From a virus: 64,000 nt of DNA. Shown one piece after another: positions 6,239-64,000 of this stretch. Numbering within the stretch: the stretch's first letter is position 1; the number at the start of each line of letters is the position of its first letter. The stretch spans positions 1 to 64,000 of IMG/VR virus record IMGVR_UViG_3300034061_006808; one strand, 5' to 3'. The notes beneath the pieces are model-generated. The model was given only the letters and a program-made list of their open reading frames with translations. It did no database searches and was not told the DNA's origin. The translations under genes and the position numbers were made by a program.

Positions 6239-6634
6239 ATGGCCTACACCAAACCCACCCTCCGCGAAACAATCAAAAACCGCATCCTTGCCCAAGGAAA
6301 AGGCGGAGCGCCCGGGCAATGGAGCGCGCGCAAAGCCCAGATGCTCGCCCTGGAATACAAGAAATCCGGAGGCGGATATCGCGGCGAGAAGACCCAAAGC
6401 CAGAAAAGCCTCACCAAGTGGACCCGCGAAGAGTGGGGAACCAAGAGCGGCAAGCCCAGCACCCAAGGCCCGGAGGCCACCGGCGAGCGGTATTTGCCCA
6501 AGAAGGCGATTACAGCCCTCACCCCGCGCGAATACTCCTCCAGCACGCAAGCCAAGCGCGAAGCCGTGCGCTCCGGGGAGCAGTTCGCCAAGCAACCCGC
6601 CAAGATCGCCAAGAAGACCGCCCGCCACCGATGA
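6239..6634 (+). CDS. DUF5872-like small basic phage protein
   Basis: 131 residues from the ATG 5 bp after the start-associated sequence; an upstream ATG at 6215 lies inside that sequence and is rejected. The body matches what I recall of DUF5872: LRETIKNRILAQGKGGAPGQ, WSARKAQMLALEYKKSGGGY, then TQSQKSLTKWTREEWGT. The family is a common small phage/viral protein of unknown function. The C-terminus is basic (KIAKKTARHR). ATGA overlap with the next gene. Confidence 0.75.
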   Translation: MAYTKPTLRETIKNRILAQGKGGAPGQWSARKAQMLALEYKKSGGGYRGEKTQSQKSLTKWTREEWGTKSGKPSTQGPEATGERYLPKKAITALTPREYSSSTQAKREAVRSGEQFAKQPAKIAKKTARHR

Positions 6635-37220: not shown

Positions 37221-39377
37221 ATGACCGCACTTCCCGAACTCGCCGAAAGCCTCGATCCGCCCACAGCCCCCTTGCGCGGGGCGCTCAAACTCACCGGGGC
37301 GCAGGAGCGCGAGTTGATGCGCTTGATCAAACTGCGCATGGGCAGCGCCGTGCAGAGCTACTCCAAGAGCGGGTGGCTGGAGAAGCGCAACCGCGCGATG
37401 AAGGAATACATGGGCAACATGGACGAGCGCAAAGACCCCGGCAGCATCTTCGAGCTTTCCAACATCACGCTCAATCTGCCCAAGCGCTTTGTGCGAATCA
37501 CCGCCGCGCGCATTTACGACTCCATGCTCACCAGCAACCCCATCCTCGGAGTCACCGTGGAAGGCAAGGGCGACGACTACGAAGTGGCGCGCGTGATCGA
37601 ACGCTACGCAGGCCACCAGATCGAACGCTGCGGCATCCGCACGATTCTGCGCGAGGCCGAGACGCTCGCTTGCATTCGCGGCGAGACGGTGGTGAAGACC
37701 ACTTGGGAGCGCCGGGTGCAACGCAGCAAAAAGCGTGGGGAGATTTTGATTGAAAACGGCCAGCCCGTGCGCGCCCGCGATGGCAATGTGGTGCGGCGCG
37801 ATGACATCTGGGTGGATGATGGCGACGACCTGGTGCTCTCCCGCGACAAGCGCATCCGGCTCACCAAGGATATAATTCCAAACTGGGTGGATCAGGAATA
37901 CGACCACTACCGCATCACCTTCGATGGCCTCGAAGCCTCCTGCATCGACCACCGCGATTTCATCTGCTCCACGACCGAAAAAGACATACACACTTCGGAC
38001 TTCTGCGCCGTGCGCATGGACATGGAGTTGGACAAAGTGGTCGCCATGCTCGCCCCCGTGAAGGACAGCCTCCAGACGCGCGAGGCGATCCGCAAGATGC
38101 GTGCGAGCGCCGATCCCGAGGCCCGCCAAGAGGCGATGAAGCCCGAGCTTTTCCGTGGCGAGGAAAGCCGCAGCCGCGATGCCCTGCCATTGTGCGAGCT
38201 TGCCGAAATCTATATGCGCGTCGTGTTGCAGGATGACGGCATTGCCGATGAGATCGCCCTCCTTGTCGATACGCGCAACGACCAGATTCTCGCCTACGAT
38301 TATTTGGATAATGTCTCCCCCACCGGCCAGCGCCCGCTGCGCATCATTCGCATGGAGCCTGTGCCGCACCGCTGGTATGGCACCGGCTTCTACGAACTCT
38401 TCGCCGACCGCCACAAATTTTGCGACCTCTTCATCAACCGCGTGAACCTCGCGGCGTCTCTCTCCGGCAACATCAAAATCGAAAACCCCATGGCCACCGA
38501 GGAAGGCATGGCAGGCGAGCCGATTGAATTCGGCACGAACAAGACCTACCGCCTGCGCGAGGGATTCGCCGCCGAGGATGTCTTCAAAGTCATCACCATC
38601 CCGAATGATGCCGCCGCGAGCGAAAACTTGCTCAACATGCTCATGCAGGTCACGCAACTCGAAGCGGGCATCGTCTCCGCAGGCGATCATGGCTTGGCCG
38701 GTCTCCCCGCCGCGAGCCTTGCCACCGGCATCCGTTCGCTTGATCGCGTGGCCAATGTGCTTCTCAAGAACATGCTTTTTGATGTGGTCGAAGGCTTCGA
38801 GGCGGTCTTGAAAGACTGCGTGGCCCTCACACTGCACAACTACAACCCGCTCGATGCCGAGCGCCTCATGGGCGAAGAAGCCGCCGCTGTGCTCGCCAAG
38901 CACCGCGACTTTTCGCAACTCCAATACCAAGTCAAAATGCTGCTCTCCAACAGCAAGGATTCCGATGTGGTCGAGGCCCACAAACAAGCCTTCGACATCC
39001 TGGTGGGCTACGAGCAACTCCCGCCCGAGCCAAAAATCCGCATCCGCCCGATTGTTTACCGCATCCTCCAAACCATGGGCATCGAGGATGTGGACAAAGC
39101 CCTCGGGGCCGAAGCCATGGCCGCCGAGGCTGCGATGGCCATCATGCCCACGCCCGAAGCTCTGGCCCAAATGCAGGCCGCGCAGCAACAGGCCGCGCCA
39201 CCCGAAGAGTCCACCCCACCCATGGAAGAAGAAGCCGCTCCGCCACCGCCTCCAGAGCAAAGCCCGGAGGATGCCATGCCGCGCCTCGATGCGAACTACA
39301 CCCCACCACCCAAAGACCTCCAATACGCGCCCATCGAAGATGGCCAGATGCCACCCCGCCCCGAACGCCTTGAATAA
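37221..39377 (+). CDS. Portal protein, P22-like
   Basis: 718 residues. Features typical of the podoviral portal family: an N-terminal SYSKSGWLEKRNRAMKEYMG, the RITAARIYDSMLTSNPILGV segment, an acidic-basic clip/stem region (DMELDKVVAML), then RMEPVPHRWYGTGFYELFAD and HKFCDLFINRVNLAASLSGN, a pattern conserved in portals of this type. The C-terminal 80 residues are disordered and P/E/A-rich. The portal ring docks TerL during packaging and the neck afterwards. It follows the giant gene and has its own start-associated sequence. Confidence 0.88.
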   Translation: MTALPELAESLDPPTAPLRGALKLTGAQERELMRLIKLRMGSAVQSYSKSGWLEKRNRAMKEYMGNMDERKDPGSIFELSNITLNLPKRFVRITAARIYDSMLTSNPILGVTVEGKGDDYEVARVIERYAGHQIERCGIRTILREAETLACIRGETVVKTTWERRVQRSKKRGEILIENGQPVRARDGNVVRRDDIWVDDGDDLVLSRDKRIRLTKDIIPNWVDQEYDHYRITFDGLEASCIDHRDFICSTTEKDIHTSDFCAVRMDMELDKVVAMLAPVKDSLQTREAIRKMRASADPEARQEAMKPELFRGEESRSRDALPLCELAEIYMRVVLQDDGIADEIALLVDTRNDQILAYDYLDNVSPTGQRPLRIIRMEPVPHRWYGTGFYELFADRHKFCDLFINRVNLAASLSGNIKIENPMATEEGMAGEPIEFGTNKTYRLREGFAAEDVFKVITIPNDAAASENLLNMLMQVTQLEAGIVSAGDHGLAGLPAASLATGIRSLDRVANVLLKNMLFDVVEGFEAVLKDCVALTLHNYNPLDAERLMGEEAAAVLAKHRDFSQLQYQVKMLLSNSKDSDVVEAHKQAFDILVGYEQLPPEPKIRIRPIVYRILQTMGIEDVDKALGAEAMAAEAAMAIMPTPEALAQMQAAQQQAAPPEESTPPMEEEAAPPPPPEQSPEDAMPRLDANYTPPPKDLQYAPIEDGQMPPRPERLE

Positions 39378-52312: not shown

Positions 52313-53604
52313 CCACCGCCGAAGCCCGCGACGACCTCCTTGCCATGATCGGGATCGAAGACCCCGCGCATGCCAGCGAGAGCGTCCTCAAACGAATCAC
52401 CAGCGACATCAACCTCGTCCTGCAAAAAATCTGGACGATGGCCTCGCCGTGGTGGAGCGCGGGCAAAAGCGGCGGCGTGCTCAAAGGGCCGCAGCCATTG
52501 AGCGGGCTCACGCTCACGAATGGCAGTCCAAACATTTTAGGAGATTACGAAACGGGCAGACTCATCATCACGAATGCGACTTTCGGAACAAAGGTCAATG
52601 GCACATACTCACGCATTGCCAACATCAATGCCGAACCTGCATGGCAAAACGCCGAAGGCACCACGCTTTCTTTTAATGCATATCGCGCACCGGCACTCCC
52701 CAGCGATCCTGGTTCGCCTGCTTATTGGGCTATTGTAGAACCCGCGACAGGTTTTTCATCGCCAACGACCAGGTATTACACGGTTAATAATAGTGCCCAA
52801 AAACCTCCTTTGAGCGGATGGCTAACTTGGGGCGGAACGAGCGGGTTGTCATTCAATGCGGGTCCAACTGGGCACACCGCCCCAACCATTGTCAAAGAAA
52901 TCGCTTCAGTTTTTTCATCGCAGTTCCTTGGACAAACATTGCGCCTCGGAAACGACCCATTCGACAACGAACTCGCCAGTTTTAACGAAACCACCCGTGT
53001 TGCCACACTGGTGCGCCCGTATGCGGGGGATACAACCACCGCAGGGACTGGAACACTATTCACCGACACAGTGATTCTTCCTGATGCAGTGATGAGCGTG
53101 ATACCGCCCGTGCTTATTCACGGAGAGCACGAACTCAAGCCTCTGCGCAGCCAGCGCGATGTGATGCTTTTCTCCGACGCCTACAATTTTCACTCTTACG
53201 CCGATACCACCGTGGGGCCTGGTAGCACCGTCATCGCCGAAAACCGCGATGTCGATGTCCCAGTGGGTTTTTACATCGAAAATTACCGCCGCGCTAGTGG
53301 CAAGACCACGCTACGCATGCGCGTCTCGCCGCTTCCCGACAAGGAATATGCGCTACGCTACGATGTGCGCCTCGGCGCGCCCGAGATCACCGCACTGAAT
53401 ACCAGCACCGAGATTCCCGTTCCTCAAAACTACGCACACAGCGTTTTTCTGCCCATCCTCCGCTACCAGTTCAGCACTTGGAGGCATGTGAACCTCGGCA
53501 ACCAAGGCAACGAGTATAAGACTCACTACGACGAAGCCTGGCAAATCCTCGCCAAGCTCAAGCCCCAGCCTGTGAGCATTGGGCGGGTTCGTATCGTTTA
53601 CTGA
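52309..53604 (+). CDS. Head-tail connector / tail adaptor-like protein
   Basis: 431 residues. A helical N-terminus (ITSDINLVLQKIWTMASPWW) and a long T/S/G-rich beta part follow. LPDAVMSVIPPVLIHGEHEL and YFLP-like repeats (HSVFLPILRYQFSTWRHVNL) end in a short helix. The mix of an adaptor-like helical start and beta body fits podoviral neck proteins; the assignment rests on position between capsid and tail genes. More AT-rich in the central third. Confidence 0.62.
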   Translation: MTTAEARDDLLAMIGIEDPAHASESVLKRITSDINLVLQKIWTMASPWWSAGKSGGVLKGPQPLSGLTLTNGSPNILGDYETGRLIITNATFGTKVNGTYSRIANINAEPAWQNAEGTTLSFNAYRAPALPSDPGSPAYWAIVEPATGFSSPTTRYYTVNNSAQKPPLSGWLTWGGTSGLSFNAGPTGHTAPTIVKEIASVFSSQFLGQTLRLGNDPFDNELASFNETTRVATLVRPYAGDTTTAGTGTLFTDTVILPDAVMSVIPPVLIHGEHELKPLRSQRDVMLFSDAYNFHSYADTTVGPGSTVIAENRDVDVPVGFYIENYRRASGKTTLRMRVSPLPDKEYALRYDVRLGAPEITALNTSTEIPVPQNYAHSVFLPILRYQFSTWRHVNLGNQGNEYKTHYDEAWQILAKLKPQPVSIGRVRIVY

Positions 53605-53614
53605 TACCTGCGCC

Positions 53615-56359
53615 ATGGAATACAAGCGCCTCAACCGGTTCAAAGGCATCGATACCTCCGAGGAGTCCACCGACTCCAGCGAGCAGACTCTCCGCTACGC
53701 GGAAAATGTCGTCCTGCGCCCGCGCGGAGCCGTGAGCCGGATGCCGCCTTACAGAAAACTTTGGAACTTACAGAATGTTGGAACGCATGCCTCCGTTTTA
53801 GGAATCAACCCGCAAGTGGATAAGACTTGCATCTTGAGCGTGACCCAACCAAGCCCCGCTTACCCAGCCCCGCCAACCAGCACGGTTTTTGTTCCGGCTG
53901 TTTTTTTAATTGCCTACGATTTCAAGAACAATAAAGGGTTGGGAATCTTCAGCGCCGTAGATGTTTCCGCCGAAGATTCAAGGCCATTCACGGAGATGGT
54001 TCCAGACTATGTTGGCTACTATCCACCGCAATTTTTTACCGTCCTCAAAAAAGGCCTGGCCGAAAACAAGCGCTGGTTCTTCTACCGCTTTTACGACTCG
54101 ATCGTGATGGGCAACGGCGTGGATGAAAATCTGATCTACCAGCACGCGAGGACGAGCCTGCGGTTGCGCACGATGGGAAGCAACGCGCAGCCAGGAATTC
54201 CGATTGTCACAAGCGGGCAGGCCACCACAACGCCCACGAAACAAGCCAGCGCGTCCATCGATTTCGCGGGAACCAAATACAACGCTCCGCCTCGTCCCCT
54301 CGCCGAAGCTGGCGTCACGGGCACGCCCGCCACAGCCTATATCAAGGTAAAATGGACGCCCGCCGACACGGCAACGGAATACGAGGCGGACCTTGCCACA
54401 ACGCCGTCTTTTACAACCCCAACCACCATCACCACCACCGACTCATCAATTCAATTCGAGTCGTTGAATTTTTCTTCGCTCTATTACTTCCGCGTGCGCG
54501 CCAAATTTGGAACCAACATTTCGGGCAATTCTTCCACAAGCTCGATCCGCACAAACGCGGCCACGCAGACATCTGTTTACAACCAAGGATCGCCCAGCGC
54601 GACCCCGTATGATGGAGAGTCCGAAACAAAAACCACGCTCATCGTTACTGCCGGGACTTCTTTCATCGGGGAAGCTGGAAACAACCTTCAGATCGAATTT
54701 GTCGCATCAGGAAATACGCTAATCAGTTCAAGGACCGGAGAGGGCACGCCAACCAGCACACTTGTTTACACGGTTCGCGGCGTGGGCACTGCATCTCTGC
54801 AAGAGGTGCTGACCTACATTGCCGCCGATGAAATCGTGCAGGACATTTTGACAGTGAGAGCAAACCCGCAGGGCGCTGTCCTTACAGACCTGGCCGCCAG
54901 ATCCCTCATCGGCGGAGTCGGGGACGGGCAGCGCACAGGCTATCCGCTCTCGGTCAACGGCCAAATCGCAACGAGCTTTTACGATCCCGGCGCGGGCGAC
55001 CAAGGTTTCAGCAGCGGCTTGAGCGTCCCCGTGCTGGTGAAGACAAATTCCTTCACAAAAATTGTCACCCCCGGCAGCAATACAACCGGCGAACTGGCGC
55101 GCTTCACCAAATTTCGCATCTGGTATCGGCAGCCAACGCCAAACACCCAAATCCAACTCCCAGCCAACACATGGCTCCTCCTCGGAGAATGCGACAACTC
55201 CCCAAGCGCGACATTTGAGGCGAAATTGCCCGCGAAGCTCGACGATAAATCTGTTTATTTCGACGGCACCGACATTCAGCGCCTCCCTCCCTGCACGATG
55301 TTTGAACTCTGCGAGGACAAACTTTTTGCAAGCGGCAACCCGGCCAACCCGACGCGCCTTTGGTATTCTGTGCGCGCCAACAAAACCGAACTCGTTCCTG
55401 AAGGTTTCAACCTCGAAAAAAACTACATCGAGATGGGCGCGCGCAAGGAGGAAGGCTCGGGCACACAGATCACCCACTTGAAAGCCATGGACCAGCGCCT
55501 CCAGGTCCACACCTCCCGAGGCATCACTCTAGTTCACGGCTCCACCTTTGTCCGCACATTCGCTCGCTCCGATTTCGGCGCGCTGAACCCATCCGCCGCC
55601 ACCGCATGGTCCCACCACATATCCCCCTACCTCGGAGCGGACGGCGTGCTCTACGAAATGAGCAACCAGCAGGCGCTCAAAAGCGGCATCGCCAGCGCGG
55701 CCTCATGGGACTACATCCGCTCCTTTGCCGACACCGCCGAGATGCAGAGGAACCCGTGGCGTGCCAATGTGGCGGGCGACCTCACCAACCAACTCGTCTG
55801 GGTGTGGCTCCCCTGCAAGATCGACGGCATCACGCGCCTCGCTGGCTTTTTATTCGACTACGAAACGAAAGGCTTCGCAGGGCCGATCACTTGGCCGGGA
55901 CTCATATCCACGACAAAATTGAGCGCCGTGGACCCGCGCATCGTCGGCCAGACCGAAGCGGGCGATCTGATCTTTATCGACTCCAGCGAGATCAACAAGG
56001 ATGAGTATCAACCCAACGAACTTCTCACCGGAAACTTCCTCGCTGTCTCGCCGAATGAATTGATCTTTCAAACGCAACTCATGGACTTCGGCGTGCCGCA
56101 TGAGCAGAAAGCCTACCTCGAACTCATGTTCAATGTCGTTCGCGGCAGTTTTGCGGAAAACATCAAGATCACGCTCGAAACCGACGAGGGCCGATCAAAG
56201 GTTTTCAACTACGGCTTGCTACGCGGCGAACGCAACAAGTGCGCTTTTATGCTTTCGGGTTACTCCGTGAGGCTCACCTTCGAGGTCACGCTGAACGCAA
56301 ACCGGCCTTTTGTTTTGCGCGACTTGGTGCTGGGCTACGACCGGCAGAAGATTCGCTGA
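53615..56359 (+). CDS. Large tail/neck protein with FN3-like and propeller-like segments
   Basis: 914 residues from the ATG at 53615; the frame opens earlier but inside the previous gene. The N-terminus ENVVLRPRGAVSRMPPYRKL is a pattern seen in podoviral tail-hub or needle-associated proteins. Residues about 225-310 resemble fibronectin III (AYIKVKWTPADTATEYEADL, SLYYFRVRAKFGTNISGNSS). Later blocks (GITLVHGSTFVRTFARSDFG, YLGADGVLYEMSNQQALKSG) look like beta-propeller blades. The last 74 bp overlap the convergent minus-strand gene. Confidence 0.7.
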   Translation: MEYKRLNRFKGIDTSEESTDSSEQTLRYAENVVLRPRGAVSRMPPYRKLWNLQNVGTHASVLGINPQVDKTCILSVTQPSPAYPAPPTSTVFVPAVFLIAYDFKNNKGLGIFSAVDVSAEDSRPFTEMVPDYVGYYPPQFFTVLKKGLAENKRWFFYRFYDSIVMGNGVDENLIYQHARTSLRLRTMGSNAQPGIPIVTSGQATTTPTKQASASIDFAGTKYNAPPRPLAEAGVTGTPATAYIKVKWTPADTATEYEADLATTPSFTTPTTITTTDSSIQFESLNFSSLYYFRVRAKFGTNISGNSSTSSIRTNAATQTSVYNQGSPSATPYDGESETKTTLIVTAGTSFIGEAGNNLQIEFVASGNTLISSRTGEGTPTSTLVYTVRGVGTASLQEVLTYIAADEIVQDILTVRANPQGAVLTDLAARSLIGGVGDGQRTGYPLSVNGQIATSFYDPGAGDQGFSSGLSVPVLVKTNSFTKIVTPGSNTTGELARFTKFRIWYRQPTPNTQIQLPANTWLLLGECDNSPSATFEAKLPAKLDDKSVYFDGTDIQRLPPCTMFELCEDKLFASGNPANPTRLWYSVRANKTELVPEGFNLEKNYIEMGARKEEGSGTQITHLKAMDQRLQVHTSRGITLVHGSTFVRTFARSDFGALNPSAATAWSHHISPYLGADGVLYEMSNQQALKSGIASAASWDYIRSFADTAEMQRNPWRANVAGDLTNQLVWVWLPCKIDGITRLAGFLFDYETKGFAGPITWPGLISTTKLSAVDPRIVGQTEAGDLIFIDSSEINKDEYQPNELLTGNFLAVSPNELIFQTQLMDFGVPHEQKAYLELMFNVVRGSFAENIKITLETDEGRSKVFNYGLLRGERNKCAFMLSGYSVRLTFEVTLNANRPFVLRDLVLGYDRQKIR

Positions 56360-56663
56360 CAATCCGCTTGGCCGCATCGCGAGCGGCCTCACGCATTTTG
56401 ATCGCCACCATCAAAATTTCCTCTTCGGAAAATCCGAGCTTGGAATTGAAATAAACTCTTCCCTCCGCGATCACATAGGATTTCGTCGCATCGGGCCGGT
56501 ATTTCGGCCCGTCCTGCTGGCGCACCTCGCGCAAGCGCGCCTTGGATTTTTCATTCAGGCGCTGGCGGTTTTCCAAATACCATTGGCGCTTGCGCGCCCG
56601 ATCGTATTCGTCGTTTTTCGCTCTCCATTCCCGATTGTATTCGCTTTGGGGTTTTGCGCTCAT
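56286..56663 (-). CDS. Small basic coiled-coil protein, only minus-strand gene
   Basis: 125 residues from the ATG at 56661-56663 (a longer frame starts at 56726 inside the control region). SEYNREWRAKNDEYDRARKR and QWYLENRQRLNEKSKARLRE are the repeated, basic, aromatic helices seen in small phage HNH-adjacent or DNA-binding proteins. It converges on and overlaps the tail gene by 74 bp. A minus-strand start-associated sequence lies 30 bp upstream of its start. Function unknown. Confidence 0.7.
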   Translation of the reverse strand: MSAKPQSEYNREWRAKNDEYDRARKRQWYLENRQRLNEKSKARLREVRQQDGPKYRPDATKSYVIAEGRVYFNSKLGFSEEEILMVAIKMREAARDAAKRIVSESSAGRSPAPSRAKQKAGLRSA

Positions 56664-56693
56664 GGAGGCACTAAAAGCGCAAAGCAAAAATTT

Positions 56694-56711
56694 GGCAATA
56701 ATGTTTCGGCA
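56694..56711 (-). promoter_or_regulatory. Start-associated sequence, copy 14 (minus strand, variant)
   Basis: Read on the minus strand TGCCGAAACATTATTGCC, matching the first 13 bases of copy 11 and diverging in the right arm. It is upstream of, and oriented with, the only minus-strand gene. Confidence 0.6.
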
Positions 56712-56781
56712 AAATAGGGTGAACACCCCGGCTAACCACCGCTATGCGCTGACATGGCTTTTTTGTCGCCTCTAGCCGCCC

Positions 56782-56804
56782 GTTGCCACTCATGTTGCCA
56801 TATA
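56782..56804 (+). repeat. Arm-type integrase site, left (paired GTTGCC)
   Basis: GTTGCCACTCATGTTGCCAT and TATA; two GTTGCC units 12 bp apart. A matching pair with the same spacing lies on the other side of the attachment core at 56945, as expected for phage integrase arm sites. Confidence 0.6.
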
Positions 56805-56850
56805 AAAATTAAATATATGATAATTAACAAATTGCATTTATTTAATTGTA

Positions 56851-56881
56851 ACCGAGGGTTCGAATCCCTCCCTCACCGCCA
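56851..56881 (+). other. Attachment-site core: 3' end of a tRNA-Ser gene
   Basis: Contains a T-arm GAGGG-TTCGAAT-CCCTC (56854-56870), the acceptor half CCTCACC (56871-56877), discriminator G and CCA (56879-56881). CCTCACC-G-CCA is the end of tRNA-Ser. No D, anticodon or variable arm precedes it (AT-rich phage DNA instead), so it is a partial tRNA copied as the crossover region. It lies between tail genes and integrase, i.e. the attP arrangement. Confidence 0.8.
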
Positions 56882-56944
56882 CCCCTTTCCCCTCTAGGAC
56901 TGGACACATAAAAACAATAAAAGCACATAAAAAACTAGGTGTGT

Positions 56945-56967
56945 GTTGCCAGTTCTGTTGCTATATT
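56945..56967 (+). repeat. Arm-type integrase site, right
   Basis: GTTGCCAGTTCTGTTGCTAT and ATT; GTTGCC and GTTGCT 12 bp apart, mirroring the left arm site. It ends 8 bp before the integrase ATG, so binding could also repress integrase expression. Confidence 0.6.
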
Positions 56968-56975
56968 TCTCCACC

Positions 56976-58133
56976 ATGGCAAGCCTAAGAAAAAAGCACG
57001 GGTCGAAGTTTTGGTTTGGTTGTTTTGTGATGCCCGATGGGCGGCGCGTGCAGCGATCCACGAAGTCGAAGGACAAAATGGAGGCGCTCCAGATCGCGCT
57101 GGCTTGGGAGAAGGCGACCCGTCAGCGGGCGACGGTGGAGCAGTCGAAAAAAGTCATCGCCAGCATTGTGAAGATTGTCCACGGCGAGGCGGTCTCCGAT
57201 GAGACGGTGGTGAGCTTTTTTGATCGCTGGGCGACCCGCAAAAGAGCAGAGGTCGGCGAGGGCACGGCGGAGAGATACAAGGGCTGCCTGAAAGTCTTTG
57301 AGGAGTTTTTGGGCGCGCGGTCCACCATGCCGCTGGCCGAGGTGACAACGAATCTGGTGGCGCTCTGGCGCGATGAGATGGCCAAGCGATTGGCTCCGGG
57401 GACGGTGAATTTCCATCTCAAAATTGTTCGCTCGGCCTTTGCTGATGCAAAATTCGAGGGTCTGATCCAAGAGACGCCTGCTGCCGGAGTAAAGATGCTG
57501 CGGCGCTCGGTGACCGAAAAACGCGAGCGCAGCAAGCGGGCGTTCACCGCTGCGGAGATTAAAAAAATCTTCGCCGTGATTCCCAAGGATACCGAGTGGC
57601 ACGGCATGACCTTGGCAGGCCTTTACACCGGCCAGCGGCTTAAAGACATCGCCCTTATGCGCTGGAGCGACATCAAGGCTGGATGGTGGAAAACCGAATC
57701 CAAAAAAACCGCGCGGCCCGTTGCCGTGCCGCTTGCCAAGCCGCTCGCAGACTGGCTCAACGAGCAGCGACCTCAAAGCAAAGCCAAAGAGGTTTTCCCG
57801 GTGGCGGCGGGTTTTATTGCGCGCACCGAGGGCAAATCCAGCACGCTCTCGAATCAATTTTATACGGTGCTAACGAAGGCGGGGCTGGTTGAAAAAAGAA
57901 GCCACACCTCGGTCGGCAAGGGCCGCTCGGCCTCGCGGGACGGCGGCAACCTTTCCTTCCATTGCCTGCGCCACACGACCAATTCGCTGCTGAAAAATGC
58001 GGGCGTGCAGGAGAGCGTGGCCATGGATTTTGTGGGACATGAATCGGAGGCCATGTCGCGTCTCTACACCCATGTGCCGGAGGCGTCGCTCCTGGCGGCG
58101 AAGCGGAAGCTGGAAAAGGCTTTTGGAAATTAA
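56976..58133 (+). CDS. int: Tyrosine-recombinase integrase
   Basis: 385 residues from the ATG at 56976; the frame opens at 56943 inside the arm site. An N-terminal SAM-like DNA-binding domain (about 60-150, AERYKGCLKVFEEFLGARST) is followed by the catalytic domain with R in LYTGQRLKDIALMRW, basic ESKKTARPVAVP, the box HCLRHT and the final GHESEAMSRLYTHV (catalytic His and nucleophile Tyr). It integrates and, with a directionality factor, excises the phage at the tRNA-Ser core next to it. Neither the integrase nor its neighbours carry the start-associated sequence. Confidence 0.93.
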   Translation: MASLRKKHGSKFWFGCFVMPDGRRVQRSTKSKDKMEALQIALAWEKATRQRATVEQSKKVIASIVKIVHGEAVSDETVVSFFDRWATRKRAEVGEGTAERYKGCLKVFEEFLGARSTMPLAEVTTNLVALWRDEMAKRLAPGTVNFHLKIVRSAFADAKFEGLIQETPAAGVKMLRRSVTEKRERSKRAFTAAEIKKIFAVIPKDTEWHGMTLAGLYTGQRLKDIALMRWSDIKAGWWKTESKKTARPVAVPLAKPLADWLNEQRPQSKAKEVFPVAAGFIARTEGKSSTLSNQFYTVLTKAGLVEKRSHTSVGKGRSASRDGGNLSFHCLRHTTNSLLKNAGVQESVAMDFVGHESEAMSRLYTHVPEASLLAAKRKLEKAFGN

Positions 58134-58210
58134 AGCCGCCTCGTTCTAAAAGTTTCAGGCGCATCAATGAAGGTGTAGCCAAAGGCGCAAGCACGCCCTA
58201 AAACGCGGCC

Positions 58211-58834
58211 ATGGCAATTCCTTCGATGAATACTCGCTATTGGATCGCTGGCTCGCTCATCGCCGCGTGGCAATTGCTCGCCTCTCCACGCTTCCCGTGG
58301 ACTCAAAATGCCGTGTGGTTTGGACTGGCGTGCTTTGTCGGGACGATCCTCTGCATCGGCTGGGCAAGCTCTCGCCTGCGCTTCGGATATGATGAAAAAA
58401 ACAACAGCCGCACGGACAGGCTTGTGATGTTGGCGCTCATTGTTTACGCGCCCGTTTACTTCCTTGCACAGCATCCCATGCAAGTGATGGAGCCGCGCTA
58501 TGTGGTGCTGGAGCTTGGAGAGTGGAAGCAGAGCCGAATTTACCGCATGGGCAGCGAGCCCGGCGATATCATCGAGACCCAGCGCAAGGACGACGGCTAC
58601 CGGAAGCTTTACCATTTCACCTTCTGGCAGACGGCCAAGGCGGAGGGTTTCCAGCCTAGCGCGCGCGACATTCCTCATGGGAAAAACTTCCCGATTTGGC
58701 TGTGCGTGGTGATCGCTTTGTTTGAGCGCGCGGTTGGGAATTTCACACATTGGATTCTCATCACGGCGGGCCTTGGTTTTTTTTTTCTGTGCAAGAATTA
58801 CTACACAAAGAAAGAAAAACAGTTTTCTTTTTGA
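58211..58834 (+). CDS. Multi-pass membrane protein (possible lysogenic moron)
   Basis: 207 residues with about four hydrophobic helices: YWIAGSLIAAWQLLASP, AVWFGLACFVGTILCIGWAS, LVMLALIVYAPVYFLAQHPM and WILITAGLGFFFLC. A hydrophilic loop of about 70 residues (EPGDIIETQRKDDGYRKLYH) lies between the third and fourth. The tail is basic. Membrane proteins beside integrase are often superinfection-exclusion or lysogenic-conversion genes; that is a positional inference. Not in a recognised family. Confidence 0.7.
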   Translation: MAIPSMNTRYWIAGSLIAAWQLLASPRFPWTQNAVWFGLACFVGTILCIGWASSRLRFGYDEKNNSRTDRLVMLALIVYAPVYFLAQHPMQVMEPRYVVLELGEWKQSRIYRMGSEPGDIIETQRKDDGYRKLYHFTFWQTAKAEGFQPSARDIPHGKNFPIWLCVVIALFERAVGNFTHWILITAGLGFFFLCKNYYTKKEKQFSF

Positions 58835-59046
58835 AAATGAAAAAGACCGCAGAGCCAGTATTTATGAGGCTTGGCAGGAGAGATTGAAATCGTGACACGC
58901 GGGACACGATAAAACCGCATTCTTGCAGAGCGTCTATTTAAGCGGGTGAAAATATTTTTTGCCCCGCAGCACAAGCATTCATGGGCTTGTCAACATTTTT
59001 CTTTATGGGGTTTTCACCCCAATTGCTTTTTTTTTAGAAAATGCAG
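58835..59046 (+). other. Non-coding stretch with hairpins and a T-run
   Basis: AT-rich gap with no gene. It contains ATCGTG/CACGAT (58889-58910), ACAAGC/GCTTGT (58971-58990) and GGGGT/ACCCC (59007-59020) followed by a 9-T run at 59027-59035. The last resembles a weak rho-independent terminator closing the integrase-membrane protein unit. Confidence 0.6.
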
Positions 59047-59074
59047 TTGACCGGTGCATTGCACCTTGTATCTT
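59047..59074 (+). promoter_or_regulatory. Promoter with embedded operator, probably leaderless
   Basis: TTGACC (59047-59052) and TATCTT (59069-59074) are spaced 16 bp. Exactly between them lies GGTGCATTGCACC (59053-59065), a palindrome with 6-bp arms. The ATG at 59081 is only 7 bp after the -10, so transcription would start about at the start codon and the mRNA would be leaderless. The inverse palindrome recurs at 59434. Confidence 0.65.
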
Positions 59075-59080
59075 ACCTCC

Positions 59081-59335
59081 ATGCCTAACAGCCCCGACAT
59101 TAATAAAACCCAACTGGTCGTCCGGTTGGAGCGGGCCTTGAAACATCAGATTGAAAAAGAGGCCACGAAACAAAAAATCACCCCAACCAACTTGGTGAAT
59201 CGGATTCTCATGGAAGAACTCTCCCATGTAGAACTCACGGCGGAGGACTACAGGTCCATTGCCGATGAAATCGAAAAAACCGCAGCAAACAAAAAACAAA
59301 AAACACATGGAAAAAAACCCAACCGTCGTGGCTAG
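59081..59335 (+). CDS. Ribbon-helix-helix-like regulator
   Basis: 84 residues. TQLVVRLERALKHQIEKEAT then ITPTNLVNRILMEEL is the beta-strand/two-helix pattern of CopG/Arc-type DNA-binding proteins, followed by a basic tail (ANKKQKTHGKKPNRRG). Its start lies directly behind the operator-containing promoter, so autoregulation is likely. A second, similar gene overlaps it by 29 bp. Candidate regulator of the lysis-lysogeny module. Confidence 0.75.
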   Translation: MPNSPDINKTQLVVRLERALKHQIEKEATKQKITPTNLVNRILMEELSHVELTAEDYRSIADEIEKTAANKKQKTHGKKPNRRG

Positions 59336-59471
59336 TTTCGCTGTAGATCGACGCTTGAAAAAGCAACTTGAAAAACTCGCAACCGCCGCTGGCAGCAACC
59401 CCAGCGCTTTGTTGCGATTTTTTTTGTCAAAGAGGTGCAATGCACCCGCTGATTTCCCAACGAAGAAATGA
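59307..59471 (+). CDS. Second small ribbon-helix-helix-like protein
   Basis: 54 residues from the ATG at 59307 (upstream codons overlap the previous gene). VVASFAVDRRLKKQLEKLAT then NPSALLRFFLSKR is again strand-helix-helix. It is shorter than the first and could be its partner. It contains the second GGTGCA palindrome in its 3' end, and its stop overlaps the next gene (ATGA). Confidence 0.68.
   Translation: MEKNPTVVASFAVDRRLKKQLEKLATAAGSNPSALLRFFLSKRCNAPADFPTKK
59434..59446 (+). promoter_or_regulatory. Second GGTGCA operator
   Basis: GGTGCAATGCACC, the exact reverse complement of the operator at 59053-59065. It lies 21 bp before the ATG of the gene at 59468 and after a TTGTCA (59424-59429). 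Two copies of one palindrome in 400 bp strongly suggest one regulator. Confidence 0.6.
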
Positions 59472-59752
59472 ACACAAATCCCTCTACTTTGCCAATCCTT
59501 CAGCTTGGTCCTTATTTGCGCTTTCCTTCCCGTGGAGCCTGCCCATGGACAGGTCTTAAAAGAAGCGTGTTGGAGCGGCTTTCTGTGAAAAGCGCGCGTA
59601 ACGATTACAACCCGCCAGTTCGAAGCATAAGCCTCAAGGGAAAAGGAATGAAAAGGGCGTGCCGGGTAATCGTCACAGAGTCCCTCCTTGCTTATTTCGC
59701 GGAGTGCGAGCGCCTTCAAAACGAAGTTACCCCGGGCGGCACGGCCCAATAA
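59468..59752 (+). CDS. Excisionase/AlpA-like small DNA-binding protein
   Basis: 94 residues. The pattern LGPYLRFPSRGACPWTGLKR, SVLERLSVKS, VRSISLKGKGMKRACRVIVT and SLLAYFAE resembles HTH_17/AlpA-type proteins (LGxxxRL...SGLSRSTLxRL...PxxVRSxxLxG...RLIxxxSLxxYL). Position near integrase supports a recombination directionality factor. A hairpin follows the stop. Tentative. Confidence 0.6.
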   Translation: MNTNPSTLPILQLGPYLRFPSRGACPWTGLKRSVLERLSVKSARNDYNPPVRSISLKGKGMKRACRVIVTESLLAYFAECERLQNEVTPGGTAQ

Positions 59753-59760
59753 AAACAAGC

Positions 59761-59784
59761 GCCCGCCGCCGTGCTGCGGCGGGC
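59761..59784 (+). terminator. GC-rich hairpin
   Basis: GCCCGCCGC (59761-59769) and GCGGCGGGC (59776-59784) pair perfectly over 9 bp with loop CGTGCT. It lies right after a stop codon; no U-run. A similar hairpin stands before RecT at 60238. Confidence 0.6.
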
Positions 59785-59811
59785 ATCCACCCCAACACCA
59801 TTACCCCGTCC

Positions 59812-59919
59812 ATGACCCACGAAGACATCCTGCGGTTGCTCGGCTACACGCTCGACACCGCTACCACATTTGGCCCCGCTTTTGCGCTCGGCTTGATCGC
59901 TTGGAGGATCGCCCGATGA
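59812..59919 (+). CDS. 35-residue membrane protein
   Basis: THEDILRLLGYTLDTATTFG then PAFALGLIAWRIAR: one hydrophobic helix. Starts 28 bp after the hairpin at 59761; its stop overlaps the next ATG. Microprotein of unknown role. Confidence 0.55.
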   Translation: MTHEDILRLLGYTLDTATTFGPAFALGLIAWRIAR

Positions 59920-60047
59920 GCGACGAATTCGACACCGATCTCTCCGGCGAGATGCAGGAAGCGCGCGAACTCGACTTTCAACACGACTGCGAGATGCGCG
60001 ACATCGAGCAGGGCATTGAACCCTATTCGGAGGAGGTCGAAGAATGA
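59916..60047 (+). CDS. Acidic 43-residue protein
   Basis: SDEFDTDLSGEMQEARELDF, highly acidic. ATGA overlaps with both neighbours. Acidic microproteins of early phage regions sometimes inhibit host DNA-binding proteins, but nothing here shows that. Confidence 0.55.
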   Translation: MSDEFDTDLSGEMQEARELDFQHDCEMRDIEQGIEPYSEEVEE

Positions 60048-60223
60048 GCGCCGAATTTGCCCTTGCATTGTTCTTCCTCGCCTTCGGCTCCATGTGGGCC
60101 TGCTGGAAGCTTGGTTTTGAAAAAGGCCAAGACGACATCCTCGAACAATTCTCCGACTACTGCGACCGGCGCAACGCCGAGCGGGAGTCAACTCAAGCCT
60201 GCCGAGACAATCGGCATAACTAA
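60044..60223 (+). CDS. 59-residue membrane-anchored protein
   Basis: FALALFFLAFGSMWACWKLG is a transmembrane start, then an acidic, soluble tail (FEKGQDDILEQFSDYCDRRN). The last six codons overlap a palindromic start-associated sequence. Coupled to the previous gene. Function unknown. Confidence 0.6.
   Translation: MSAEFALALFFLAFGSMWACWKLGFEKGQDDILEQFSDYCDRRNAERESTQACRDNRHN
60200..60217 (+). promoter_or_regulatory. Start-associated sequence, copy 13
   Basis: TGCCGAGACAATCGGCAT: inner arms TGCCGA/TCGGCA are perfect. It is 61 bp before the RecT ATG, with a hairpin in between, and is the only copy on this side of the integrase module. Confidence 0.7.
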
Positions 60224-60237
60224 AACCCAAAACAAAA

Positions 60238-60261
60238 GCCCCGCCGTTGACGCGGCGGGGC
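60238..60261 (+). other. GC-rich hairpin in the RecT leader
   Basis: GCCCCGCCG (60238-60246) and CGGCGGGGC (60253-60261), 9 bp with loop TTGACG, 17 bp before the RecT start. Without a U-run it may act on translation or RNA stability. Confidence 0.55.
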
Positions 60262-60278
60262 CTCAGTAGAAACAAACG

Positions 60279-61367
60279 ATGAACACAGAAATACAAACAC
60301 AGAACGGGGCGGTTGTCAACAGCCAGCCCAAGAAAGGCCTCCGGGCACTCCTCGAAGGCGACGCCTTCAAACAGGCCATCACCTCCGCCCTGCCGAAACA
60401 TTTGCCCGCCGAGCGGTTCATCCGCGTGGCGATCACGGCGATGACCCGCACGCCGAAGCTGGCCGACTGCGACCAAGCGACATTTTTCAATGCGCTCCTC
60501 ACGCTGTCGCAATGCGGCATCGAGCCCGATGGCCGCCGCGCCTACCTCATCCCGTTTGAGAACCGCAAGCGCGGCGTGACTGAGTGCCAACTCATCATCT
60601 CCTACATGGGCTTGCTGGAACTGGCCATGCGCACGGGCGAAATTTCCAATGTCCACGCGGACAAGGTTTGCGAAAACGACTTGTTTGAATACGACCGAGG
60701 ACAGATCGGGCGGCACGCCATTGATTTCAAGCGCCCCCGTGGCAAGGCGTATGCCTACTACGCGCTCTGCCGTTTCAAGGACGGCACCGAGAAGGCCGAG
60801 GTGATGACCGTGGACGAGGTGGACGCGATCCGCAGCCGTTCCCGCGCTGGGAACTCCGGCCCTTGGGTGACGGATTTTGACGAGATGGCAAAGAAGACGG
60901 TCTTCCGCCGCCTCTCCAAGTGGCTTCCCATTTCCAGCGAATACCGCGACGCGCTCGAAAAAGACGCCGACCAACTGCCCTCGCTGGCTGGAGCCACGCA
61001 GGAAAAGCCTGCGCAGGCCAAGCCGGTTTTTTCACGCCCCGCAGCCCCCGCGCTGGAACTGGAGATGGACGACATCCCGATGGACACGCCCGCAGCCAGC
61101 GCCGTCGCAGCGCCCGCCCGTGCCACCAAACCCGCAGCCGCAGCCGAAGAGGAGTTGCCGACCTTTGAACCCGATACGCCTCAGAAGACCCTCGCCCTCG
61201 CGCTCTCCGATGCTTCGGTGAACGAAGGCGAATTCATGCGTTCGCTCAAAAAACTCGTCCCCAGCGCGAAGAAAGCCGCAACGATCAGCGAACTCACCGA
61301 CCAAGTGGCCAGCGAGGCGCTCAAGGACATCGACTTCATCATCTCCAACATCGAGGAGGCACAATAA
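60279..61367 (+). CDS. recT: RecT-like single-strand annealing protein
   Basis: 362 residues. The RecT core is plain: ALPKHLPAERFIRVAITAMT, QATFFNALLTLSQCGIEPDG, RRAYLIPF and CQLIISYMGLLELAMRTGEI, then AYYALCRFKDG and MAKKTVFRRLSKWLP. A P/A-rich linker and a short C-terminal domain follow. It anneals complementary strands with the RecE-like exonuclease encoded immediately downstream (TAATG overlap), serving replication and packaging-linked recombination. Confidence 0.92.
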   Translation: MNTEIQTQNGAVVNSQPKKGLRALLEGDAFKQAITSALPKHLPAERFIRVAITAMTRTPKLADCDQATFFNALLTLSQCGIEPDGRRAYLIPFENRKRGVTECQLIISYMGLLELAMRTGEISNVHADKVCENDLFEYDRGQIGRHAIDFKRPRGKAYAYYALCRFKDGTEKAEVMTVDEVDAIRSRSRAGNSGPWVTDFDEMAKKTVFRRLSKWLPISSEYRDALEKDADQLPSLAGATQEKPAQAKPVFSRPAAPALELEMDDIPMDTPAASAVAAPARATKPAAAAEEELPTFEPDTPQKTLALALSDASVNEGEFMRSLKKLVPSAKKAATISELTDQVASEALKDIDFIISNIEEAQ

Positions 61368-62215
61368 TGAACGACGAACTGCCACAGCCCACCGAATTCG
61401 TGCCAAACATGGAAGGCACCCTCTACAGCCTGCCGGAGGACATCTACCGGCAGGCTCCCGGAGTGAACATTTCCAGCCTCAAGGCCATGCGCCGCAGCCC
61501 CGCGCACTACTTGGCCAAAGTCATGGCCCCCCGCTCGGAGCCAACTCCCGCCTTGGTCTTCGGAACCCTCCTGCACCGCGCGTGCCTGGAGCCGCAGAAT
61601 CTTGCGGGGAGTTTTGCGGTGAAACCCGAGGACATCGACTTCCGCACCAAAGCCGGAAAGGAATGGCGCGACGCGCAAACCGTCCCGATCATTGATGCCC
61701 AGCAGGCCGTGGCATTGGAACAAGCCAGCGCCAAGGTGCTGGCCCACCCCCACGCCAGCGCGATCCTCGCCCGCGCCGACAAGGAAGTGAGCGTCTTCAA
61801 AAAACGCAGCCTCACCAGCGACCTCCTCTTGAAAGGCCGCATGGACGCCGTGGCCGTGGACGAGCAGGGACTCACCACCATTGCGGACATCAAAACCTGC
61901 GAGGACGCATCCTCAGATGCCTTCGCCCGGTCCATTGCCACCTACGGCTACGCGGAACAAGCGGCGTTCTACATGGACCTGCTTAAGGACGACCGGAATG
62001 ACAAAAAGGCCAGTTACTTTGTTTTTATCGCCGTGGAGAAATACGCGCCCTACGAGGTTGCGATCTACTGCCTCGACGAGGACAGCATCGAGCTCGGGCG
62101 CGAGCGCAACAACCGGCACCTCGACACGCTGGAGTTGTGCTTGAGGCTTAACGAATTCGTGGGCTACTCGCCCGAAATCGAAACCATCAGCCTCCCCCGC
62201 TGGGCGAAGGCTTGA
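61367..62215 (+). CDS. RecE-like 5'-3' exonuclease (PD-(D/E)XK)
   Basis: 282 residues. VNISSLKAMRRSPAHYLAKV and LVFGTLLHRACLEP are typical of the exodeoxyribonuclease VIII/DUF3799 family. The catalytic site is in LLKGRMDAVAVDEQG and TIADIKTCEDAS, with an upstream H and E. GYAEQAAFYMDLL supplies a conserved Q/Y. It resects ends for RecT. Overlaps RecT by TAATG. Confidence 0.9.
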   Translation: MNDELPQPTEFVPNMEGTLYSLPEDIYRQAPGVNISSLKAMRRSPAHYLAKVMAPRSEPTPALVFGTLLHRACLEPQNLAGSFAVKPEDIDFRTKAGKEWRDAQTVPIIDAQQAVALEQASAKVLAHPHASAILARADKEVSVFKKRSLTSDLLLKGRMDAVAVDEQGLTTIADIKTCEDASSDAFARSIATYGYAEQAAFYMDLLKDDRNDKKASYFVFIAVEKYAPYEVAIYCLDEDSIELGRERNNRHLDTLELCLRLNEFVGYSPEIETISLPRWAKA

Positions 62216-62232
62216 GAAAGGACGCCATCACC

Positions 62233-62472
62233 ATGGAAGACCCAACGCCCTACCGCTACACCCCGCGCCCGTCGAAAGCCGTGAAAAAACCACGCCAAAA
62301 AACAACCCCCGACGCTGAGGAGATGACTATGCGCGACATTTTCGCCGCATTTGCCTTGGCCGGTATTAACGCCAATCAAAAAGCTTGGGATAATCTTAGC
62401 AACGAAGACTTAGTAGATATCTCCTACACTCAGGCAGATCACATGTTGAGATTCAGAAAGGATGCCCAATGA
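62233..62472 (+). CDS. Small conserved early phage protein
   Basis: 79 residues from the ATG at 62233 (GAGAAAGGA 11 bp upstream fits a ribosome site; a TTG at 62212 overlaps the exonuclease stop). The C-terminal half, MTMRDIFAAFALAGINANQK...SYTQADHMLRFR, matches a small family common beside phage recombination genes (MTLRDYFAAxALxG...AxxMLxAR). Function unknown. Confidence 0.7.
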   Translation: MEDPTPYRYTPRPSKAVKKPRQKTTPDAEEMTMRDIFAAFALAGINANQKAWDNLSNEDLVDISYTQADHMLRFRKDAQ

Positions 62473-62786
62473 TCGCCCAACTCGACCTCTTCCAAGGCAC
62501 CGCCGCCCGCAACCGGGCGGTGGCGAAGGTGGCCAAAACCACCCCTCCCGAGTGGAGCACCGCCCTGCGCCATGTGGTGGAAACTCTCGCCCGTCGCGGC
62601 GGCGAGTTTTCCACAGACGATGTGTGGACGCGCCTGGACGGCCAGCCGCCCGAGCCCCGCGCCCTCGGAGCCACAATGATGAGCATGGCCCGCCTCGGCC
62701 TCATCCGCCGCACGGGAAAATATGTGCCCAGCGCCCGCCCCGAGTGCCACGCACGGCCCGTCGCCGTTTGGGAAGGAGTCCAATGA
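62469..62786 (+). CDS. Winged-helix-like small protein
   Basis: 105 residues. FSTDDVWTRLDGQPPEPRAL then ATMMSMARLGLIRRTGKYVP gives a winged-helix pattern (DVWxxL...PRALGAxM...GLI), often seen in phage early regions. Preceded by AGAAAGGATGCCC, a good ribosome site. ATGA overlap with both neighbours. Confidence 0.72.
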   Translation: MIAQLDLFQGTAARNRAVAKVAKTTPPEWSTALRHVVETLARRGGEFSTDDVWTRLDGQPPEPRALGATMMSMARLGLIRRTGKYVPSARPECHARPVAVWEGVQ

Positions 62787-63088
62787 CCAGCCCCCTCATC
62801 GACAAGCCCAACGAACTGGTGCGCGGCCACGGCGAGACGATCTACATCGGCAGCATCACGGCCCCAGCAGGCACGCACTTGGCGATCACCCGCTGGCGCG
62901 ACGCCCGCCACGAACTCCCCGAGGAAAGCAAAAGCGTCCTCATGGCGCTCCTCTGTGGCGAGGAGTGGACAGGCTACCTCTCCGACGACGGACTCTGGAA
63001 ATTCATCTCCGGCGACAATGTGGGCGAACCCGTCACCCACTGGATGGAATACCCCGCCCCACCCGCAACCAAGGAGACCCAGCCATGA
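62783..63088 (+). CDS. DUF551-like protein
   Basis: 101 residues ending GEPVTHWMEYPAPPATKE. The LPEESKSVLMALLCGEEWTG, YLSDDGLWKF and VTHWMEYP elements match DUF551, a small domain common in phage early genes with unknown role. ATGA overlaps at both ends. Confidence 0.72.
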   Translation: MTSPLIDKPNELVRGHGETIYIGSITAPAGTHLAITRWRDARHELPEESKSVLMALLCGEEWTGYLSDDGLWKFISGDNVGEPVTHWMEYPAPPATKETQP

Positions 63089-63237
63089 CCCTCGAATTCG
63101 CCATCGGCCTCGGCCTCCTCACCCTCACCAGCGTGTTCGTCTCCTACAGCCTCGGGCGGTGGGAAGAGCGCACACGCTGGCAAAACATGAAGCGCCGCGA
63201 CCGCGAACGCCTGATGCGAAAGGACGAATGGGAATGA
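63085..63237 (+). CDS. 50-residue membrane protein
   Basis: LEFAIGLGLLTLTSVFVSYS is a transmembrane helix, followed by a basic tail (RWEERTRWQNMKRRDRERLM). ATGA overlaps. Unknown role. Confidence 0.6.
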   Translation: MTLEFAIGLGLLTLTSVFVSYSLGRWEERTRWQNMKRRDRERLMRKDEWE

Positions 63238-63368
63238 AATCCCCCGCCCTCATCGCCGGAATCATCCTGACGCTCCTCTACCTCGGAGCCTGCGGCCTCT
63301 ACTGGCACGAAGCCGCCCAACCCAACCTCAACCTCTGCCCGCTTTGCGGGGGAGAAACCCGCCCATGA
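63234..63368 (+). CDS. 44-residue membrane protein with CxxC tail
   Basis: ALIAGIILTLLYLGACGLYW is a transmembrane helix; the tail LNLCPLCGGETRP carries CPLC. ATGA overlaps with both neighbours. Unknown role. Confidence 0.58.
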   Translation: MKSPALIAGIILTLLYLGACGLYWHEAAQPNLNLCPLCGGETRP

Positions 63369-63610
63369 AAAATTCCAAACCCAAATCCAAATCCGAAGCA
63401 CTCCAGGACCAACTCATCGAGACGCTGGAGGCATACAGAATTGCCTTGGAGGGCACCTTGAATAAAGACGAGCAAATCCGCGCCCTTGAAGCCGAACTCG
63501 ACGCCGCCCGCCAAATCTTCGCCGCGTTATCAGCATCGCGTAACATCAATATGCACGCATACGAGGAAATGGCCGTGTGGCTTCAAAAGCGCAAGGAGGA
63601 ACAACCGTGA
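63365..63610 (+). CDS. Small coiled-coil protein
   Basis: 81 residues from the ATG at 63365. SEALQDQLIETLEAYRIALE, then EQIRALEAELDAARQIFAAL is a coiled coil. The stop overlaps a GTG start (GTGA). No family recognised. Confidence 0.65.
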   Translation: MKNSKPKSKSEALQDQLIETLEAYRIALEGTLNKDEQIRALEAELDAARQIFAALSASRNINMHAYEEMAVWLQKRKEEQP

Positions 63611-64000
63611 AATGCGATGTCCTGCCAGAAAACATCCTCCGGTGCATGAGCGCCGAGGACCGCGCGACCCACGCCAAGGCGGTCGGCCACCCGAACGCCG
63701 GGAAGACCAGCGCCGAACTCCGCGAGGCGGCGATCAAGAAAGACGAGCGAACGGCCCAGAAGGAAATCGCCAACTACCTCCGCCTGCGCGGCCTGCAATT
63801 CATCAACCCGCCGATGAACAAAAAAAGCACGCTTCCCGAGGGCTGGCCGGACTTCACCCTGGCCTTTCGCGGGCATCCCGTGGCTTTTGAAGTGAAGGTC
63901 TGGGGCCAGAAACCCCGCCCAGAGCAAGTCGAACGCCACAAAAAGATGCGCGATGACGGCTGGGTGGTGCATGTGGTCAATGGCGTCGCCGATGTGGTCG
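63607..64000 (+). CDS. VRR-NUC-like nuclease, cut by the window edge
   Basis: 131 residues visible, GTG start overlapping the previous TGA; no stop before the edge. The last 60 residues, GWPDFTLAFRGHPVAFEVKV then RPEQVERHKKMRDDGWVVHV, fit the VRR-NUC/PD-(D/E)XK layout: PD...E-x-K and a conserved Q. Likely cleaves branched DNA or joins recombination with RecT/RecE. The rest lies outside the window. Confidence 0.75.
   Translation, partial: MKCDVLPENILRCMSAEDRATHAKAVGHPNAGKTSAELREAAIKKDERTAQKEIANYLRLRGLQFINPPMNKKSTLPEGWPDFTLAFRGHPVAFEVKVWGQKPRPEQVERHKKMRDDGWVVHVVNGVADVV

Follow-up and report, generated by a model that had tools for sequence, protein, structure and literature searches.

A complete tRNA-Ser attP with 12-bp-spaced arm pairs in a closed phage genome, and a candidate code for arm recognition in its integrase family

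If the 3' end of a tRNA gene lies between repeated words and next to a phage integrase gene, is it the complete attachment site (attP) of an unintegrated phage or the edge of a prophage, and what does the integrase recognize in the repeats? The locus that raises these questions is located in a stretch of 64,000 nucleotides (the window), which represents positions 1-64000 of the 68,335-bp virus record IMGVR_UViG_3300034061_006808. The main reading, to which a probability of roughly 0.9 is assigned, is that the locus is a complete attP of a temperate phage, most likely of Verrucomicrobiota, that the phage genome is closed and unintegrated, and that its integrase is used in a lambda-like manner.

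The attP occupies positions 56782-56967 and consists of a tRNA 3' core between two 22-bp arm units (Table 1). The left arm (56782-56803) is GTTGCCActcatGTTGCCATAT and the right arm (56945-56966) is GTTGCCAgttctGTTGCTATAT; they are 82% identical across 22 nt, with a 12-bp period in both. An earlier reading of the locus, made from the sequence only, had described two GTTGCC pairs with the same spacing. The spacing is indeed the same on both sides, but the second copy of the right arm (56957) is GTTGCT, which differs at one position from the other three words. Bare GTTGCC pairs 12 bp apart, with at most one mismatch in each word, are present at 17 places on the two strands of the window, and an exact pair is present once. 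The 22-bp arm pattern with up to three mismatches is found at just two places in the window, compared to 0.01 on average across 100 shuffles. When no more than two mismatches are allowed, these two places are also the only ones in the whole 68,335-bp record, in which a reversed control of the pattern had no match. The spacer to the left of the core coincides in part with the 46 bp of the window that are richest in AT. Putative arm sites are thus present on both sides of the core, as in a lambda-type attP, and both pairs are kept in a sibling phage (locus L138, below). The gene order proposed by the sequence-only reading, with tail genes on one side and the integrase on the other, also holds: the ORF to the left is tail-like, with weak PHROG matches, and the ORF to the right matches PF00589.

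Table 1. Coordinates of features in and around the attP and elsewhere in the genome (window positions unless stated otherwise)
Feature	Position	Strand	Remarks
P (left) arm: paired words GTTGCCA...GTTGCCA, 12-bp spacing	56782..56803	+	counterpart in sibling locus L138
AT-rich spacer, probable bend region	56804..56849	.	11% G+C versus 58% in the genome
Core: tRNA-Ser 3' end (T-arm, acceptor strand, CCA)	56852..56881	+	
AT-rich P'-side stretch, 25% G+C	56905..56940	.	kept in sibling
P' (right) arm: GTTGCCA...GTTGCTA, 12-bp period	56945..56966	+	end 9 bp 5' of int start codon
Tyrosine integrase, 385 aa	56976..58133	+	covarying positions in N-domain residues 1-65
attP-int cassette	56793..58114	+	sole inverted stretch of 44 versus sibling G001
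Tail-like ORF, 926 aa, left of attP	53579-56359		weak PHROG tail matches, best 8e-6
146-aa ORF between tail-like ORF and attP	56286-56726	-	
RecT-type annealing protein and exonuclease VIII-like pair	60279-62215	+	right of cassette
SU10-type portal protein and weak terminase match	37221-39377 and 9218-10972	+	
7146-aa polyvalent protein	15761-37201	+	about a third of genome
tRNA-Met(CAT), sense strand, within the uninterrupted 7146-aa ORF frame	22317-22390	+	
The same tRNA-Met(CAT) in the sibling, also inside an open frame	L156 1938-2012	-	

The integrase ORF extends from 56943 to 58133, with a conserved start ATG at 56976. Its product matches PF00589 (E 1.4e-16; 61.2 bits against a curated cut-off of 27.1), PF13102, and a PHROG integrase family (7.3e-55). 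Tyrosine recombinases have a characteristic catalytic spacing, R...HxxR...H...Y, and in an alignment made by inspection R221, H329, R332, H355, and Y364 are invariant between the window integrase and that of the sibling. With a PF00589 score above the cut-off and the catalytic residues present, the protein belongs to the tyrosine recombinase (phage integrase) family, in which a pentad RKHRH and a tyrosine nucleophile, as well as an N-terminal arm-binding domain of three strands and one helix, have been described (PMC8138268). No match to the Pfam arm-binding domain was found in the integrase. An AlphaFold model of low confidence, built from a two-sequence alignment and used for secondary structure alone, places strands at residues 3-6, 13-18, and 24-29 and a helix at 32-48 (pLDDT approximately 45-65 there, mean 53). 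The core-binding and catalytic part is related by sequence to PDB entries 1z19, 1z1b, and 5j0n; the match to lambda Int begins at approximately residue 116, and the N-domain is without a match.

The core is present in one copy in the window. ARAGORN called no complete tRNA there, and the 5' part of the tRNA is absent. Outside the record, the core 30-mer is present in at least 120 bacterial genome stretches and 14 viral contigs. Of the 134 outside copies listed, 126 lie within a tRNA predicted by ARAGORN, in every case a tRNA-Ser (98 with anticodon GCT, 27 with GGA, and one with TGA); the remaining eight lie in no predicted tRNA, and the 12 copies for which the program returned none count four loci from the window's own record among them. 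Identity among the 134 listed copies usually reaches one base to the left of the 30-mer and stops at its right end, with a maximal common extension of five bases. Therefore, the shared core is approximately 31 bp, which is the length that had been proposed. The proposals that the core comprises the T-arm, acceptor end, and CCA of a tRNA-Ser, and that the probable target is a tRNA-Ser gene ending in the same bases, are borne out by the same copies. The core is identical to a presumptive attB-type bacterial sequence, in that the 30-mer lies mostly in tRNA-Ser genes.

Several features indicate that this site is part of a closed genome. The record ends in an exact copy of its first 127 bases, and such an end overlap typically signals that a contig from a de Bruijn assembler is circular. 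Additionally, a search with the integrase identified a sibling phage, G001 (IMGVR_UViG_3300044617_002308; 71,267 bp), which matches the record in 44 stretches of 120 bp or more when compared piecewise. The start of G001 corresponds to record position 44,453 and its end to approximately 44,315, the ends of the record meet at 43.6-43.9 kb of G001, and the two are collinear across the break points of both contigs. Because each contig spans the break point of the other, both are permutations of one circular map, and since the record closes on itself and its sibling is permuted, the attP is interior and not at a prophage edge. The sequence-only reading of a free or circular phage form therefore stands, with the qualification that an excised circle and terminally redundant virion DNA look alike in these data: circularity fits terminal redundancy equally well. 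Indeed, a closed contig derived from tandem lysogens, or from circularly permuted and terminally redundant virion DNA, is a serious contender at somewhat under even odds. Either source would likewise leave attP intact and yield a circular map, the permuted sibling is itself a linear record, and nothing found here counts decisively against them. That the contig is instead a prophage edge, with the core as attR or attL and host DNA on one side, is scarcely credible and was dropped, for although an isolated tRNA 3' end that lacks the 5' part resembles attR, int and an arm lie on the CCA side with phage genes on the other, G001 matches both sides of the core, and the 127-bp overlap of a record with a permuted sibling already refutes it.

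Comparison with G001 also shows which parts of the attP are held together. The G001 integrase is 64% identical to that of the window, and its attP has the same layout upstream of int, with left arm GACGCCAgaattGTTGCCA (two mismatches in the distal copy), right arm GTTGCCAgtgatGTTGCCA, AT-rich stretches similar to those of the window, and a different core. Copies of the G001 core with one mismatch lie in tRNA-Ser(TGA) in six of six places, found in six of 16 genomes searched. Despite the different core, the alignment between the two attP regions runs through both arms. The arms have thus been kept while the core switched from one serine tRNA to another, which is good evidence that both arms form one working unit.

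Of the 44 matching stretches, 43 share one orientation; the exception runs from within the P arm through int. Its flanks keep their order, with the tail gene and the 146-aa ORF on one side and RecT and the exonuclease on the other, and its identity to G001 is 68.7% of bases compared to 76.6% and 73.1% in the adjoining blocks. Flanking inverted repeats were considered as a mechanism for the flip, and none around the cassette was convincing. To judge from this alignment, attP and int appear to form a single cassette, which may be flipped and directed to a different serine tRNA. The P2-like Ralstonia phages phiRSY1 and phiRSA1 provide a precedent, as they are collinear siblings in which the orientation of int is inverted and the tRNA target differs (Ser GGA versus Arg CCG; PMC5694545). 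However, their integrases belong to two distinct groups, whereas the integrases compared here are 64% identical, attP and int form one cassette, and both targets are serine tRNAs.

Elsewhere, the genome of the window's phage has few database matches. The large polyvalent protein has RadC-like, LPD1, LPD3, LPD5, and ART-PolyVal domains (the latter below the cut-off). Identity to the sibling rises to 93.6-97.2% in three stretches within 24917-33276, compared to 66-88% in the other matched stretches, suggesting recent exchange. The tRNA-Met(CAT) within the open frame is nearly identical between window and sibling, with divergent adjoining linker codons and stem pairing kept.

The core alone cannot single out a host, because among the matches listed it is also found in Bacteroidota, Pelagibacter, Acinetobacter, and others; naming a host in this way was abandoned, as the 30-mer is present in many phyla with an extension of at most five bases. 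The integrase is more informative. Relatives at E <= 1e-40 were found in 19 of 288, 64 of 384, 46 of 213, and four of 28 genomes in overlapping samples of Verrucomicrobiota, and 10 of 21 picked Verrucomicrobiota genomes had relatives at E <= 1e-15. In contrast, there were none in eight genomes of other groups (E <= 1e-10), and searches at E <= 1e-20 gave 0 of 343 for the phylum of a Planctomycetota genome and 0 of 347 for the phylum of an Acidobacteriota genome, all groups being named after the titles of the records. As relatives were found only in the Verrucomicrobiota samples, this phylum is most likely that of the host. The best genomic relative is 43% identical, so these loci are not lysogens of the window's phage. 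Similarly, no attL, attR, or lysogen of this phage was found in the genomes searched. Scans of viral contigs with the integrase, two integrases, the exonuclease, the tail, and the terminase revealed no close relative other than G001 and L299, a 6.2-kb contig with a terminase 83% identical; the exonuclease scan gave seven further relatives at 38-48%. A set of 50,697 phage records contained nothing close to window positions 53000-64000.

Relatives of the integrase also allow the spacing of the arm pairs to be assessed beyond this phage. Loci were gathered from Verrucomicrobiota genomes, with the window and L138 included, and the first set, of 100 loci, was reduced to 98 non-redundant upstream regions because L204 lacked upstream sequence and L214 was a duplicate. 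A direct repeat of at least 7/8 matches with a period of exactly 12 bp is present in the last 80 bp before int at 68 of these 98 loci; repeats with periods of 11 and 13 bp are present at five and 10. Controls for the 12-bp repeat gave 1.8 in shuffles, four of 98 within the int body, and six of 95 further upstream. The arm word varies by integrase and includes GTTGCCAC, ATTCTTAC, GTTCTGAC, GTTATGCA, GTTAGCAC, and others, which share a frame of approximately RTTNNNA. Three viral contigs, L126 (core at 6427), L133 (core at 1875), and L134 (core at 5808), appear to carry an intact attP with the same tRNA-Ser core and, by eye, CCAGTGTGCCC-like pairs on both sides; the integrases adjoining those of L133 and L134 are approximately 22% identical.

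The arm word covaries with the N-terminal domain of the integrase. Covariation was assessed for the 82 integrases that have a pair at 11-13 bp (16 of the 98 lacked one). Arginine at residue 5 accompanies G at arm base 4 in 16 of 17 cases and tryptophan accompanies C in 16 of 16, while histidine goes with A in 22 of 28 and with G in six, and threonine with C in five of eight. Measured as mutual information against permutation, the links of base 4 with residue 5 (z 17.8) and residue 26 (z 16.9) are followed by base 6 with residue 7 (z 11.9), base 1 with residue 24 (z 10.7), and base 2 with residue 16 (z 10.0). Residues 1-65, which supply 61 of the 339 columns tested, account for 25 of the top 30 links, and the best column outside them reaches z 6.3. 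On or next to the three predicted strands, residues 5, 7, 14, 16, 24, and 26 follow an alternating pattern, as expected if, in the low-confidence model, they occupy one face of a sheet. These associations, which are statistical results on sequences, suggest a simple residue-to-base rule. In the proposed code, base 4 would be G with arginine at residue 5, A with histidine, and C with W, T, V, F, L, or I, with probable help from residue 26; residues 7, 16, and 24 appear to go with bases 6, 2, and 1, respectively.

The rule for residue 5 was fixed beforehand and applied to new loci. Because the genomes sampled from the two other phyla gave no integrase homologs, this blind test was moved to further Verrucomicrobiota genomes with the rule unchanged. 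L280, which is at the same place as L217, was excluded beforehand, and two of 36 new loci were dropped as duplicates; of the remaining 34, 29 have an arm pair, three of which have no rule for their residue 5, leaving 26 to be scored. The prediction was right in 21 of these, compared to a shuffle mean of 9.0 and a maximum of 18 in 10,000. Four of the five failures have histidine at residue 5; some of the five may be due to residue 26 or to an incorrect register.

Shared ancestry of the integrase and its upstream DNA, as opposed to direct reading of the arm by the protein, could produce the same association. Base 4 and the class of residue 5 do cluster on the catalytic-domain tree (29 base-4 changes compared to 40 when shuffled), and the signal thins with few representatives: at 40% identity (17 sequences) the residue-5 link is first yet near background columns, and at 36% (nine sequences) it is second. 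However, with 46 representatives at 50% identity it is still the strongest (z 12.6), and the links are concentrated in residues 1-65. Additionally, in every band of catalytic identity below 50%, base 4 is shared in 69-77% of pairs with the same residue 5 and in 16-22% of pairs that differ there; above 50%, the corresponding counts are 43 of 55 and 14 of 32. Counting against the code itself, seven of 22 sister pairs on the catalytic tree have the same residue 5 but a different base 4. The blind test counts against ancestry, though its genomes are of the same phylum. Shared ancestry in place of direct reading is considered unlikely. It is more improbable still that a repressor or some other regulator uses the 12-bp pairs as operators close to the int promoter: most relatives do have them directly before the int start codon, but in the window's phage a matching pair lies beyond the core (imperfectly so in the sibling), and the word covaries with the N-domain of the integrase and little with the remainder.

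The orientation of the core sets the window and its sibling apart from most of these relatives, in which the upstream tRNA fragment is reversed, with its CCA side away from int. Between -160 and -70 at 132 loci, the T-loop motif is reverse at 109, forward only at four, and in neither orientation at 19. The forward loci are the window, L138, L292, and doubtfully L273, and the idea that this orientation is unique to the window's phage and its sibling was accordingly dropped. L292 is a distant relative (34%) in which int directly follows an apparently intact tRNA-Gln. The distance from the T-loop to the first arm word is 83 bp in the window and L138, compared to a mode of 85 and a median of 86 bp in 71 relatives. 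As this distance is nearly unchanged, the core looks to have been turned round in place in the window's lineage, perhaps helped by its near-palindromic T-loop. For tRNA-adjacent integrases at large, the tRNA followed by int in the same direction is the commonest arrangement (736 of 1273; PMC2951348), and the orientation seen here is thus unusual only within its integrase family.

Overall, these observations are consistent with a mechanism in which the core-binding and catalytic domains of the integrase would act on the T-stem and T-loop of the tRNA-Ser-derived core, and the N-terminal domain would hold the two 12-bp-spaced pairs of arm sites, one pair on either side of the core. Crossover with a host tRNA-Ser gene would take place in the T-loop, likely at approximately 56858-56864. 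The resulting attL would consist of an intact tRNA-Ser followed by the P' arm and int, and attR of the P arm followed by the displaced tRNA 3' end. Because the P' pair ends so close to the int start codon, bound integrase should also repress its own gene, for which self-regulated tRNA-associated integrases are a precedent (PMC2951348). Among these, KplE1 IntS has the tRNA and then int in the same direction, a shape predicted here as well, and its att region overlaps the region upstream of int, as it does here (PMC2951348). In contrast to that system, repression is a prediction for the window's phage, and most relatives of its integrase have the opposite core orientation.

In lambda, whose tyrosine integrase is heterobivalent, arm-type sites on both sides of the core are bound by a small N-terminal domain (PMC4880445), and the layout here is the same. 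The differences from lambda are that the arms have a fixed 12-bp period and another word, that the core is derived from a tRNA, and that no exact IHF consensus was found in the attP spacer region. Similarly, in the Cluster K mycobacteriophages CrimD and Pixie, pairs of arm repeats flank a core from the 3' end of a tRNA or tmRNA, and arm words differ among close integrases, as they do here (PMC3203893). Those repeats are 11 bp and in CrimD are inverted between the two sides, few phages are involved, and the suspected residues are different ones: the nearest printed statement to a code is that residues 17 and 19 of a few mycobacteriophage integrases are candidates for arm specificity (PMC3203893). 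No residue-to-base code for integrase arm sites is stated in the literature searched, which mostly excluded subscription papers.

The attP alone is ordinary and complete; it shows that the contig is a whole free phage and predicts where that phage integrates. The novel part is the arm code. A joint reading, in which a residue-to-base arm code, a frozen geometry with diverging words, a movable cassette, and a turned core belong together, is considered probable. One geometry with many arm words represents a natural data set for reading and predicting arm specificity. If the code is true, the arms of attP sites, and hence the ends of prophages, would be annotatable from sequence, and arm words would diversify from phage to phage while the geometry is frozen. 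Co-resident prophages could in this way be kept off one another's sites, and the integrase family allows a direct test of why arm words diversify.
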